From Roseibacillus sp. (GTDB taxonomy: Bacteria > Verrucomicrobiota > Verrucomicrobiia > Verrucomicrobiales > Akkermansiaceae): a DNA stretch of 34,010 nt. The translations under genes and the position numbers were made by a program. The notes under the pieces were generated by a model. It was given only the letters and a program-made list of their open reading frames with translations, had not been told where the DNA came from and ran no database searches. Below are positions 1,389 to 32,961 of the stretch, piece after piece. Every line of letters begins with the position of its first letter. Position 1 is the first letter of the stretch. The stretch covers positions 26,030 to 60,039 of the forward strand of contig PAQU01000081.1 of NCBI GenBank assembly GCA_002709395.1, in the 5' to 3' direction.

Positions 1389-1703
1389 TCAGCCAGCGAT
1401 GCCGGTGATCTCCACCTTGGTAAGAGCCCGGCGGTAGCCTTTGGTCTTATGGTGGCCCTTGCGGCGCTTGAGTTTAAAGGCGATCTCCTTTTTGGCACGA
1501 AACTGGTCGAGCACCTTGGCGGTTACCGCGGCCCCCTCAACCAGGGGAGTTCCTACCGTGGTCTTTGACCCGTCATTGAGGAGGAGGACCTCGGCGAAAC
1601 GAATTTCGCCGTCGACCTCGGCATCAAGCTTTTCAATGTCAAGCTTGTCGCCTTCCTGGACGCGATACTGCTTTCCGCCGGTCTTGAATACTGCGAAGGC
1701 CAT
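1389..1703 (-). CDS. rplU: 50S ribosomal protein L21
   Basis: The 104-residue protein starts MAFAVFKTGGKQYRVQEGD, the classic L21 opening. The C-terminus carries the KRRKGHHKTKGYRRALT segment that binds 23S rRNA. It is the first gene of the rplU-rpmA operon. The upstream gap to the divergent tsaE is about 127 bases and must hold the promoter, although no strong -35/-10 pair stands out. A GC-rich hairpin lies about 40-55 bases before the start codon. No Shine-Dalgarno sequence is visible before the ATG. Confidence 0.97.
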   Translation of the reverse strand: MAFAVFKTGGKQYRVQEGDKLDIEKLDAEVDGEIRFAEVLLLNDGSKTTVGTPLVEGAAVTAKVLDQFRAKKEIAFKLKRRKGHHKTKGYRRALTKVEITGIAG

Positions 1704-1743
1704 GATAGTTGGAGGTGACGGGATTTAACAGCCGGACAGGAGG

Positions 1744-1757
1744 CCCGGCGGGCCGGG
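1744..1757. other. GC-rich hairpin in the rplU/tsaE intergenic region
   Basis: CCCGGC-GG-GCCGGG is a perfect six-base inverted repeat about 40 bases upstream of rplU. It could fold in the rplU leader RNA. There is no U-tract, so it is not a standard terminator, and a function is not established. Confidence 0.35.
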
Positions 1758-1830
1758 AATTCACCACAGGCTTCCGGGAGGGGCAAGAAATTTTTGCCAA
1801 GCCGGGGCCCGCAGGGCACAGTTCCCGGGT

Positions 1831-2256
1831 ATGGATTTTCCCCTGAAATGCGACAATCCGGGCGCTATGCAGGCCCTTGGGCGCGATCTGGCAGGGGAAT
1901 TGGCGTCTGGGGGGGTAGTTGGGCTGGATGGTGAGCTTGGAGCGGGAAAGACGGAATTAGTCAGGGGATTGGCGGCAGGGATGGGTTGCGAAGGAGAGGT
2001 GACCAGCCCCACCTTTGCCATTCTTCAGGAATATCGAGCTGGGGCCCGCAATCTCTACCACTTTGATTTTTACCGGGTTGAGAGCGGAGAGGAAATCCTA
2101 GCGCTAGGCTGGGATGAGCTGCTGGAGGAACCGGCCAGCGTGGTAATAGTAGAGTGGGCGGAAAAGTTTGCCGGGTTGCTTCCTTCCAAGGCTCTGCGCT
2201 TGCGCATAGAAATACTCTCTCCGGAAGAGCGACTCGTCCTTTGTGAGGGACCCTGA
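1831..2256 (+). CDS. tsaE: tRNA threonylcarbamoyladenosine biosynthesis ATPase TsaE
   Basis: This is a 141-residue small P-loop protein. The Walker A motif GELGAGKT is at residues 34-41. It is followed by the family motif TSPTFAILQEY and by YHFDFYRVES, and then by the VVIVEWAEKF motif near residue 110. TsaE is the ATPase partner of TsaB/TsaD in making the t6A modification of ANN-decoding tRNAs. It is divergent from rplU and convergent with a small lipoprotein gene 12 bases downstream. Length and motif order are normal for the family. Confidence 0.92.
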   Translation: MDFPLKCDNPGAMQALGRDLAGELASGGVVGLDGELGAGKTELVRGLAAGMGCEGEVTSPTFAILQEYRAGARNLYHFDFYRVESGEEILALGWDELLEEPASVVIVEWAEKFAGLLPSKALRLRIEILSPEERLVLCEGP

Positions 2257-2268
2257 ACGGTGAGAGTT

Positions 2269-2472
2269 TTACCTTGAGGAGGCCTTCAGGGCGATGCCGT
2301 GGGAGCGGGTGGCGTCGGCACTTGCCGCTGGCAGGGTCTCGTCAACATCAGTTACGGTACGGACCCCTGCCTGGAACAGGCGGATCGGAGTCTGGATGAC
2401 CCTTCCTGCGAGGGTGCAGGAGGACAGGCTGGCGATGGCAAGGAGGGGGAGAAGCCGAACGAGATATTTCAT
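2269..2472 (-). CDS. Small lipoprotein of unknown function
   Basis: This is a 67-residue protein with a lipoprotein signal peptide: MKYLVRLLPLLAIASLSSC ends in the lipobox LSSC at Cys19. The mature part of about 49 residues has no recognised domain (TLAGRVIQTPIRLFQAGVRT, then a polar tail). The frame is open to 2541, but the start at 2472 is the one that gives a proper signal peptide. It lies 116 bases downstream of the selenoprotein pair on the same strand and may be part of that transcript (inference). Confidence 0.65.
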   Translation of the reverse strand: MKYLVRLLPLLAIASLSSCTLAGRVIQTPIRLFQAGVRTVTDVDETLPAASADATRSHGIALKASSR

Positions 2473-2588: not shown

Positions 2589-3308
2589 CTAGGTCTCCTC
2601 CTTCTTCAGTTCCGCAACCTTTGCAAATACTTCCCCCTTGCCTTCAGCCACGATCTTGCCGTCCTTGCTTAGAAGTTTATAGTTAGGTACGGCCCGGGGC
2701 ATGTACTCTTCAAGCCCACTCTCCTTGATTTTATCCATCATCACGGTAGGCCAGGGAAAGCCCTCCTTGGCGGCCCATGACTCCGCGGCGTTCTTGTCCC
2801 GGTCGAGGCTGGCGTGAATCATTTCGACAGCGGGATTAGTTGCGATCTCTTCGTTGTATTGCTTCACCAACTGTGGAGCGGATCTAATGCAGGGCGGTCA
2901 CCAGCTCGCCGAGAAGTAGACAATGTAATATTCCGGAGCCTTCTCCAGCTTGTACCCTGCAAATTTTTCTCCCGCGAGCTTGGAAAGAACGCCTTCCTTC
3001 GCCAGGCCCTTGCCGATTTTCTGTTCGTTGAGAGCGCCCCCGGCTTCCGCTCCGCCCCCAACCTTCTCGATAGCCGCTTCATTTTCCCGGATGAACGCCT
3101 TGTCCGCATCGGAAAGCAGCTCAGTAGAAAAAGAGACCGTCTTGCCGGTGCTCAGAAGGACAGTGATTTTTCCAGCGGCCTTATCGAGGGCCTTCAGCTC
3201 CCCCTTGAAGGTTTTTTTGCCATCTGCGCTGGTCCATGTCCGGGCTGTCAGCGTTCCCAAGCCCCACAAGGAGGCGAGAGCAACTGCGAGGATGTATCTC
3301 TTTTTCAT
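2589..3308 (-). CDS. Exported SHD1-thioredoxin-like selenoprotein (in-frame UGA, UPPC active site)
   Basis: A single reading frame runs from the ATG at 3308 to the stop at 2589, interrupted only by UGA at 2900-2898; read through, it gives 239 residues. Residues 1-22 are a signal peptide. Residues of about 23-75 match an SHD1 domain (RTWTSADGKKTFKGEL). A thioredoxin-like domain follows. The active-site region reads YFSASW-U-PPC, where homologues carry WCPPC, so UGA sits at codon 137 in place of the catalytic Cys, and the resolving Cys is kept. Downstream are EGFPWPTV and AVPNY, the latter holding the cis-Pro, as in tryparedoxin/nucleoredoxin-like proteins. A hairpin lies 19 bases after the UGA. 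It would act in the periplasm as a thiol/selenol oxidoreductase. A conventional annotation would split it into two ORFs. Confidence 0.82.
2862..2878 (-). promoter_or_regulatory. Putative bacterial SECIS hairpin for the UPPC selenoprotein
   Basis: On the minus strand, 19 bases after the UGA, CUCCAC and GUGAAG can pair (five of six pairs, one C-A mismatch) around the loop AGUUG; an outer G-C pair extends the stem. The loop starts 25 bases after the UGA. That distance, and a G within the first two loop bases, fit the general bacterial SECIS pattern. The paralogous gene has the same loop at the same spacing. Confidence 0.6.
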
Positions 3309-3363: not shown

Positions 3364-3939
3364 TCATTTAAGAGCGGAAATTTTTTCAAAGGCCTCCTCT
3401 TCAGTTTTGGCAAGGACCTCCCCGCTGCTGTCCACCAGATAGATCTCCCCTGCAAAAGCGCCGTAGGTGTTCAACCCAGTTGCCTCCCATTCCGGCATGA
3501 GCACGGTTGGCCAGGGGAAGCCTGCCTTGCGGGCCCACGCGAGCGCGTCCTTCTCGACGTCGTCGTAGCTGGCATGGATGAGCTCAACAATGGGGTTGGG
3601 CTCAATAATCTTCTTATATTTCTCCAGCAACTCTGGAGCGTGTTCCTGGCATGGGCCTCAGAAGCTTCCGCTGAAATTCAGAAGATAGTAGCGCGGGGCC
3701 TTCTGCAGGTCGGCAAGAATGTATTCCCCCTTTACCAGGTAATGGGTCCGGCCAAGGAGCTTGCTGCCGAATTCTTGCTTTTTGAGCGCCTTGACGATCT
3801 CCGCTCTCGGTGCTGGCGGAGGCTGCTGGAGGGCTGGTGGGGCAGTGGCCGTGGCCGCCTCGGATGTTTTTGAGTCCTGGCAGGAGCCCAGGAAAAGGAC
3901 CCCGGAGCAGAAAAGCGGAGCGAGGTAATAGGTTTTCAT
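3364..3939 (-). CDS. Thioredoxin-like selenolipoprotein (in-frame UGA, UGPC active site)
   Basis: One frame runs from the ATG at 3939 to the stop at 3364 with a single UGA at 3660-3658; read through, it gives 191 residues with Sec at 94. The signal peptide ends in a lipobox (FLGSC, Cys20). A Pro/Ala-rich linker follows, and then a thioredoxin-like domain with LNFSGSF-U-GPC in place of the usual CGPC. After it come ELIHASYDD and AGFPWPTVLM, closely paralleling the neighbouring paralogue. The position of the cis-proline (AVP in the paralogue) reads FAG here, which is unusual. It would sit on a membrane facing the periplasm. It is 34 bases after the hydrolase-like gene and 55 bases before the second selenoprotein, so one operon is likely. 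Confidence 0.82.
3622..3638 (-). promoter_or_regulatory. Putative bacterial SECIS hairpin for the UGPC selenoprotein
   Basis: On the minus strand, 19 bases after the UGA, CUCCAG and CUGGAG form a perfect 6-bp stem around the five-base loop AGUUG. Spacing and loop are identical to those of the hairpin in the adjacent paralogue. The sequence also codes for the conserved Ala-Pro-Glu-Leu-Leu-Glu stretch, so part of the conservation could be protein-driven. Confidence 0.65.
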
Positions 3940-24637: not shown

Positions 24638-25786
24638 CTACTTAGACAGCTTATAAGCGTTGTTGAGGGCCTTTAAAAAATCCTCTTCGCGAGGTTCTCC
24701 GCTGAGAACCTGGCCATTCATGAAGACAACTTTTGGCATGGCTCCAATCCGGGTGCTCCGGGCTAGTTGACCATAATCAGCTACTCCTGATTTCAGCTGT
24801 TTTTCTACCCATGGGTCCTTCAGTGCGTTTTCCAGTTCCTCAAAACCAACGATCTGCCCGACAGCGGCCTCAGCTACTTCCGGAAGGAGGGTCGGACTGG
24901 CAAACAACTGTTCATGAACCTCGGGCCAGCGGTCTGGAGCAGCGCGCCAAGCTGCGAGGCTCAGGAGTGAGAGGACACACCCGTGCTGATGCTTGGTTCC
25001 CCTGGCCGGAGAATAGGGATTGCACGATTGCTCAAGGGGGGCAGGGAGAAGGATGGTGCAGAAGGCTCCGGGATATTTGTTCTCTATCTTGTGGAGATAC
25101 TCATGGACCCGTAGACACGAGCTGCAAGTGTAGTCGAAGTATTTGATGATGACATGCTCTGCGTTGGGTGGACCGAGGTGTGGGAGGTCGGCTGTGCTGT
25201 AGCGCTTTCCGTTCAAGATGCGAACCTCGCGGCCAGCCTTCCGAGGTGACAGGTCCTCGAGTTCCACCACCTCCTCAGTCACGGTATGGGTCTCGGACTT
25301 GGGCCCGAGGGCTTGTCCCAGAGCCAGTGCCAGAAGGGCGGCGATAGCTGCGGCAGGGGCAAAACGGATGGGCGTAGTGGGGTGGGGAGCCGGGACGCGG
25401 TGAAGTGAAAGCACCAGAATGATGGAGGTGACGATCCCGATCGTGTGCATGGCGAGGCACCAGGGGCAGACGGACTTGATGGTGAGGTACAGGAGTCCGA
25501 TGAACCAGAGTGCCGCCCCGGTAAGGCAGATGGCAAAGGCCAGGTAGAGGGGCCGGGAAGGCCGGAAGGTTGTGATGAGGAGGGCGAGGTAAACGGCCCC
25601 GGCGAGGACACTGACGGGAATCCCGAAGAACTGGGACCACTCGGAGCCGAGGACGTTGCTGCAGCCGGACCCGGCACCGCATCCGGCGAGGGAGGTGGTT
25701 TTCCCGGCGAGCTTCAGCCCCCCGAGATAGCTGCAGATGCCCAGCCCGGCGAGGGTGAGAAAGCGCAGGATCCAGGGGGACTTCAT
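24638..25786 (-). CDS. VKOR-DsbA-like fusion (disulfide-forming membrane protein)
   Basis: This is a 382-residue protein. The first 160 residues are four to five TM helices with the VKOR cysteines: Cys36/Cys42 in the periplasmic loop (AGCGAGSGCSNVLGSEW) and the CPWC redox pair at 107-110. After a linker comes a soluble thioredoxin-fold domain with YFDYTCSSCLRVHEYL (CSSC, 221-224) and a cis-Pro region GAMPKVVFMNG. VKOR reoxidises the DsbA-like domain and passes electrons to quinone, which drives disulfide formation in the periplasm. A GTG one codon upstream (25789) is an alternative start. The Cys-rich exported protein downstream could be a client (inference). Confidence 0.9.
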   Translation of the reverse strand: MKSPWILRFLTLAGLGICSYLGGLKLAGKTTSLAGCGAGSGCSNVLGSEWSQFFGIPVSVLAGAVYLALLITTFRPSRPLYLAFAICLTGAALWFIGLLYLTIKSVCPWCLAMHTIGIVTSIILVLSLHRVPAPHPTTPIRFAPAAAIAALLALALGQALGPKSETHTVTEEVVELEDLSPRKAGREVRILNGKRYSTADLPHLGPPNAEHVIIKYFDYTCSSCLRVHEYLHKIENKYPGAFCTILLPAPLEQSCNPYSPARGTKHQHGCVLSLLSLAAWRAAPDRWPEVHEQLFASPTLLPEVAEAAVGQIVGFEELENALKDPWVEKQLKSGVADYGQLARSTRIGAMPKVVFMNGQVLSGEPREEDFLKALNNAYKLSK

Positions 25787-25822
25787 CACGGGAGGATGGG
25801 GGGAGGGGGTTCTTACTCAAAG

Positions 25823-32865: not shown

Positions 32866-32961
32866 AAAGTGCCAGGGAGCCGCGGCAAAGCCGGACAGGC
32901 TACCGTTGCTTCCTTTCGGACCTGGCGGATTTCACCAGCCGTCCCTCCACGGCCCCTGACG
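32866..32961 (-). ncRNA. ffs: Signal recognition particle RNA (small bacterial type)
   Basis: The minus strand carries the conserved SRP helix 8 core: CCAGGUCC, a GAAA tetraloop, then GGAAGCAACGG, matching the bacterial pattern GGUCCGGAAGGAAGCAGCC. The two ends pair as CAGGGGCCG (5') with CGGCUCCCUG (3'), and a U-run follows the 3' end, acting as terminator. The length of about 95 bases fits the small 4.5S type without an Alu domain. SRP RNA binds Ffh to target membrane proteins co-translationally. Ends are approximate. Confidence 0.85.

Follow-up and report, generated by a model that had tools for sequence, protein, structure and literature searches.

Tandem genes with in-frame UGA codons in Roseibacillus sp. 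very probably encode exported thioredoxin-fold selenoproteins

We analysed a 34,010-nt stretch of DNA from a MAG of Roseibacillus sp., hereafter called the window. On its minus strand, the gene P0001 occupies positions 2589 to 3308 and gives a protein of 239 aa when TGA is translated as a residue. Codon 137 (2898 to 2900) is the only UGA of the gene, and the terminator is TAG. The product consists of a signal peptide, an SH3-like beta domain resembling SHD1 and a thioredoxin-fold domain with the motif U137-PPC, and it reads MKKRYILAVALASLWGLGTLTARTWTSADG...YFSASW-U-PPC...EGFPWPTV...AVPNY.... Translation of the minus strand from 3308 to 2589 confirmed the coordinates, the SASW-U-PPC motif and the UGA at codon 137 that an earlier, sequence-only reading had given. 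That reading also held that a normal thioredoxin-like domain follows the UGA through EGFPWPTV and AVPNY. This is borne out by a Thioredoxin_8 match at residues 126-219 (2652 to 2933, minus strand; Pfam E=1.6e-9) and by the AlphaFold model (mean pLDDT 91.7), in which the thioredoxin fold runs on past the UGA and U137 stands directly before helix 138-154, at the start of helix 1. Elsewhere in the window, a bacterial small SRP RNA was found at 32867-32961 on the minus strand (Rfam RF00169, 59.8 bits).

The N-terminal domain of P0001 (residues 22-76; 3081 to 3245, minus strand) contains beta strands at residues 23-61 of the AlphaFold model. It had been called SHD1, and SHD1 (PF03983) is indeed its best Pfam family, yet the score of 14.2 bits is below the gathering score of 23.7. 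Despite this weak match, SHD1-like is a fair label, since a same-order Cys homologue (L096) scored 33.5 bits, above the cut-off, and 10 of 37 family members matched SHD1 at E<0.01. The domain perhaps has a role in docking.

The sequence-only reading was right about the UGA of P0001 but overlooked a second gene with an in-frame UGA of its own. This gene, P0002 (3364 to 3939, minus strand), lies 55 nt upstream of P0001 and encodes 191 aa with a lipoprotein-type signal (LFLGSC) and a thioredoxin fold with the motif U94-GPC. Its UGA at codon 94 (3658 to 3660, minus strand) stands in the context ...YYLLNFSGSF-U-GPC... and is kept in the genus orthologues examined, and its regular terminator is also TGA. 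The fold is of the Thioredoxin_8 type (AlphaFold mean pLDDT 86.9), and sequence comparison identified P0001 and P0002 as paralogues. A third family member, a selenoprotein with a U-GGC motif, is encoded on another contig of the source MAG (contig C28; L106:882-1694, minus strand). Three UxxC thioredoxin-like selenoprotein genes lie in a row in one related genome (L032 of G010), and a genome from another family of the same order (G076) also has a tandem pair.

A relative of these genes is encoded in 91 of the 117 related genomes, and exactly one TGA was present at the site in 44 of the 117, among them every one of the 15 same-genus genomes. Across the related genomes, 49 distinct post-UGA sequences were read. 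All 12 same-genus P0001 orthologues keep the same single UGA, and the pN/pS ratio among them was 0.18 downstream of the UGA vs 0.46 upstream. The post-UGA part of P0001 is, by these substitution rates, under strong purifying selection as protein. These data bear on whether the UGA is really a TGC or TGT, or marks a dying gene. The source is a MAG of 100 contigs, and one TGC-to-TGA difference would suffice for such an error. However, the same UGA recurs across 14 genera whose genomes were assembled independently, as well as in the paralogues, and selection acts downstream of it. Conservation of the UGA and purifying selection beyond it exclude sequencing error, pseudogene and chance, and we consider an error or a pseudogene extremely improbable.

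Homologues from genera without Sec factors, for example Akkermansia and Haloferula, carry a Cys codon in place of the UGA (CGPC or CPPC); the alignment thus returned the Cys at codon 137 that the sequence-only reading had proposed to look for. A scan of named genomes with a Cys-only peptide pattern returned Cys homologues. In this analysis the label Akkermansiaceae depends on one same-family genome (G049), whose homologue and the Akkermansia muciniphila one are identical (L092/L115). We placed 86 domains on a maximum-likelihood tree, where 50 Sec forms made up one group with a single Cys pair (L111/L112) nested within it, and one further Sec form (G090) was placed among the Cys forms of its own family. 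The exchange between Sec and Cys took 3 state changes on this tree, vs 27 expected when the states were shuffled. The Cys homologues also bear on a reading in which P0001 is two separate proteins, a functional 136-aa N-terminal product and a separate or decayed C-terminal ORF. Without selenium, a stop at the UGA would yield such a 136-aa product, and a TTG-started ORF of 93 aa is present after the UGA. However, the Cys homologues are one continuous protein of equal length, a product that stops before UxxC would have neither the active site nor most of the thioredoxin fold, and the 93-aa ORF would begin within the first helix. We judge the two-protein reading to be very unlikely.

A stem-loop lies 19 nt past each UGA, over the codons of APQLVEK, with the consensus CUCCAC-AGUUG-GUGGAG. 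In P0001 it occupies 2862 to 2878 (minus strand) as CUCCAC-AGUUG-GUGAAG, with one C-A mismatch; in P0002 it occupies 3622 to 3638 (minus strand) as CUCCAG-AGUUG-CUGGAG (E=1.5e-13 with model R1). Between the paralogues the loop-closing pair is swapped from C-G in P0001 to G-C in P0002, so that the pair is kept while the amino acids change from Q to E and from V to L. In an alignment of 34 distinct sequences, pairing holds in 91.7% of cells, and both sides have changed in four of the six pairs. The score for covariation was 0.158 vs 0.045 for shuffled alignments; none of 500 shuffles reached it, and no slid version came close. The apical loop is AGUUG, and A29-G30 and U32 are invariant. Synonymous change is also restricted at the hairpin: in the 12 P0001 genus orthologues, pS over its six codons was 0.00 vs 0.55 for the entire downstream half; in all Sec forms pS at the hairpin codons was 0.19 vs 0.66 at the same codons in Cys forms. 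RNAalifold alone predicted just the inner three pairs, and the case for the hairpin is therefore built on pair counts, shuffles and synonymous rates.

The hairpin is absent from the Cys forms. In one Cys homologue with CGPC (L113, at about position 1915), the next codons, GCTCCGCAACTCGTGGAA, resemble a decayed hairpin, and this gene is possibly a recent Sec-to-Cys conversion. A covariance model of the hairpin matched exactly three genes in the source MAG, namely P0001, P0002 and the copy on contig C28, and the next match had E=0.26. In a 388-genome sample of the phylum, matches were confined to same-family genomes that encode this selenoprotein, with zero matches in the Akkermansia genomes of the sample. 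The hairpin resembles the E. coli fdhF SECIS in lying in the reading frame shortly past the UGA and in having a G in the apical loop, but it differs in its short 6-bp stem with no obvious bulged U. In E. coli fdhF the distance from the UGA to the apical loop is about 18 nt; it is 25 nt here, about 7 nt farther. This somewhat larger distance and the C-A mismatch of the P0001 copy count against the Sec reading. In the sequence comparisons, the hairpin behaves as a bacterial SECIS element. Promoter and terminator scans returned nothing above chance.

Given the in-frame UGAs, we searched the source MAG for the selenocysteine factors. The genes selA (490 bits) and a Sec-type selD (371 bits) are present. 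The selD gene (contig C69; L018, about 1396-2435, minus strand) is itself UGA-coded: its product reads MSREEIKRLTELSSCGG-U-ASKLG (CGG-U-ASK), with the UGA at the known Sec position of SelD, and a standard gene caller would start after the UGA. Neither selB nor tRNA-Sec was found in the source assembly, an 86%-complete MAG of 100 contigs, which counts against the Sec reading. The matches to the tRNA-Sec model in this MAG were tRNA-Ser, -Leu, -Gly and -Arg, and the top match for selB was EF-Tu, the rest being other GTPases; none of these was counted. By contrast, each of the other 14 genomes in the genus has selB, and 7 of them have tRNA-Sec, with the anticodon UCA. The selB gene of sister genomes is flanked by a tyrA-aroA-cmk block on one side and by the gene of a conserved 409-415-aa protein on the other. 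In the source MAG the latter gene is located on contig C16, about 3.4 kb from its start, and a search for aroA gave no match at all; the stretch with selB is thus absent from the assembly, and an assembly gap is the best explanation for the lack of selB. Of the four genes that the sequence-only reading had proposed to search for, selA and selD were found and selB and selC were not. It had also named the absence of selB or selC from a complete genome as evidence against a selenoprotein; that absence was seen, but in an incomplete genome with an apparent gap at the selB locus.

We compared the distribution of the factors with that of the UGA form. Among the 117 genomes, selB and/or tRNA-Sec occurred in 43 of the 44 genomes with the UGA form vs 15 of the 73 others (Fisher 5e-18, a value that overstates independence since the genomes are related). 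The sole UGA-form genome with neither factor is the source MAG. The count by genus is the safer statement: all 14 genera that have the UGA form also have Sec factors, and the UGA form is found in 0 of 18 genera without the factors. In many related MAGs tRNA-Sec lies near a contig end (L074, L079, L083, L071, L073, L076 and L089), and some have selB and no tRNA-Sec, as if the adjacent sequence, perhaps a repeat or an integration site, breaks assemblies. In one relative (L107 of G037), tRNA-Sec lies 266 bp from a UGA thioredoxin-like gene in divergent orientation. Among the relatives this was the only match to the SECIS model close to tRNA-Sec, and none was close to selB; co-localisation of such matches with either gene is not general.

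The UGA might also be reassigned or leakily read as Trp, or read as Cys by a modified tRNA. Cys-inserting tRNAs with a UCA anticodon have been reported in some bacteria, and the exchange of UGA and Cys at the site is also compatible with such a tRNA. However, TGA terminates 11 of the 24 genes in the window, P0002 included, the UGA form is linked to the hairpin, selB and tRNA-Sec, and selA is present together with a selD that is UGA-coded itself. There is thus very little to recommend reassignment. The selenoprotein reading first proposed for P0001 is strongly supported by the Cys homologues, by selA and selD, and by selB and tRNA-Sec(UCA) in the genus. We infer Sec insertion from these data, and both UGAs are almost certainly read as selenocysteine. 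The region from 3939 to 2589 on the minus strand very probably holds two tandem genes for exported thioredoxin-fold UxxC redox proteins with Sec at the in-frame UGA.

UxxC selenoproteins of the Thioredoxin_8/TlpA-like kind have been known since 2005. A thiol-disulfide isomerase-like selenoprotein (pfam13905/cd02966, UxxC) was described from four Sargasso Sea sequences (PMC1088965), and the thiol-disulfide isomerase-like protein was kept in inventories of 87 families (PMC9312934) and 119 families (PMC13188914). The Sargasso family and the proteins described here have in common a Thioredoxin_8/TlpA-type fold, UxxC, a downstream SECIS-like hairpin and widespread Cys homologues. The Sargasso family was described without an SHD1-like domain, a tandem arrangement or a Verrucomicrobiota host; it is set apart by this description, and a direct relation is possible. 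The Redoxin family and the UGC-containing TlpA-like selenoproteins (PMC13188914, Table 1) likewise place Sec within the active-site motif, in a thioredoxin fold of the AhpC/TlpA-like type, but no SHD1-like fusion is listed for them and the UGC type spaces the motif differently. Akkermansia, Haloferula and further Verrucomicrobiota have exported SHD1-thioredoxin proteins (L115, L118, L141 and L144) that share the architecture and align with the proteins described here, but carry Cys (CGPC/CPPC) instead of Sec and have no hairpin; these genera have neither selB nor tRNA-Sec.

Tryparedoxin and ResA/StoA/DsbE share the fold and the active-site position with the proteins described here, and ResA, StoA and DsbE also the envelope location; however, they are Cys-based, about 20-28% identical and without an SHD1-like domain. 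Scores against the NCBIfam equivalogs for ResA and DsbE were far below the cut-offs (32.3 vs 170 for NF002854; 22.9 vs 123 for TIGR00385). By sequence and fold, the redox domain is thus most similar to exported thiol-disulfide oxidoreductases and their kin such as tryparedoxin, ResA and StoA, but it belongs to none of these equivalog families. Neither SHD1 nor the stem Verrucomicrobi- is mentioned in the 2022 and 2026 selenoprotein inventories (PMC9312934, PMC13188914). A literature search that covered few subscription journals found nothing on SHD1 with thioredoxin or on selenocysteine in Verrucomicrobiota, Verrucomicrobiales or Akkermansiaceae. The suggestion of an undescribed architecture therefore needs to be narrowed: the UxxC Thioredoxin_8/TlpA-like kind is not new, whereas the SHD1-like fusion, the tandems and Verrucomicrobiota are not in the inventories. 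As far as searched, the features that are apparently new are the fusion with an SHD1-like domain, the arrangement in conserved pairs and in triplets, the spread across Akkermansiaceae and related families, and a hairpin specific to the lineage.

We propose the following mechanism. SelB and tRNA-Sec(UCA), recruited by the hairpin 19 nt downstream, would insert Sec at each UGA, where it would be the exposed, N-terminal nucleophilic residue of UxxC in the thioredoxin fold. P0001 would be exported by its signal peptide, with the SH3-like/SHD1-like domain ahead of the redox domain, and P0002 is a predicted lipoprotein. The Sec selenolate would attack an oxidised envelope substrate, which resolving Cys140 (P0001) or Cys97 (P0002) would then release. 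Electrons may be supplied by a membrane transporter of the DsbD type, and a DsbD-type protein is encoded on contig C96 of the source MAG. No conserved substrate or partner gene was found beside P0001 and P0002. The window also encodes a VKOR-thioredoxin fusion, an envelope disulfide-forming enzyme (24638-25789, minus strand; VKOR 54 bits, Thioredoxin_4 30 bits), which shows that oxidative folding takes place in the envelope too. Judged by sequence and fold, P0001 and P0002 are most likely reductants or isomerases of envelope disulfides or oxidised thiols; their envelope location, redox direction and partners are likewise what we infer.

The cis-Pro loop differs between the two proteins. P0001 keeps AVPN; P0002 has AGE, not VPN, and the P0002-type proteins of the genus have AGE, PGE or PGD where VPN is expected, the canonical cis-Pro being lost. 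The cis-Pro is normally needed for substrate binding of the thioredoxin type. Because of this loss, P0002 is perhaps not a thiol-disulfide reductase of the standard type and has possibly diverged in function. The same loss could indicate that both are selenoproteins of another kind, for example a peroxidase or a selenol metal-binder that is reduced by its tandem partner, and the conservation of the tandem suggests that P0001 and P0002 act together. However, UxxC with its resolving Cys, which the sequence-only reading had described as retained in P0001, is kept in all members, P0001 retains the cis-Pro, and the most similar folds are those of tryparedoxin, ResA and StoA. We regard a non-reductase function as possible, though rather unlikely. 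In a broader and tentative reading, which still falls short of even chances, P0001 and P0002 would belong to a lineage-specific envelope selenium redox system. Its duplicated Sec thioredoxin-like proteins might have divergent roles, with the SHD1-like member anchored or docked and retaining the cis-Pro, and the lipoprotein, without the cis-Pro, having gained other chemistry, which could conceivably be a peroxidase activity or a metal or selenosulfide relay. As part of this reading, the tandem duplication would be older than the family split within the order, since the other family (G076) has the pair.

These findings contribute a selenoprotein architecture that is well supported and seemingly missing from the inventories, which do not name the phylum either. 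A standard gene caller would halt at every UGA, leaving these genes split or truncated. With its compensatory changes between paralogues, the hairpin yielded a covariance model that finds the family with no false matches in 388 genomes of the phylum. The clean split of Sec and Cys between sister genera, with Akkermansia among the Cys users, offers a natural comparison of the worth of Sec in one enzyme. In genera that make the Sec form, most genomes have at least two copies, and selenium is thus probably important to the envelope redox chemistry of these bacteria.
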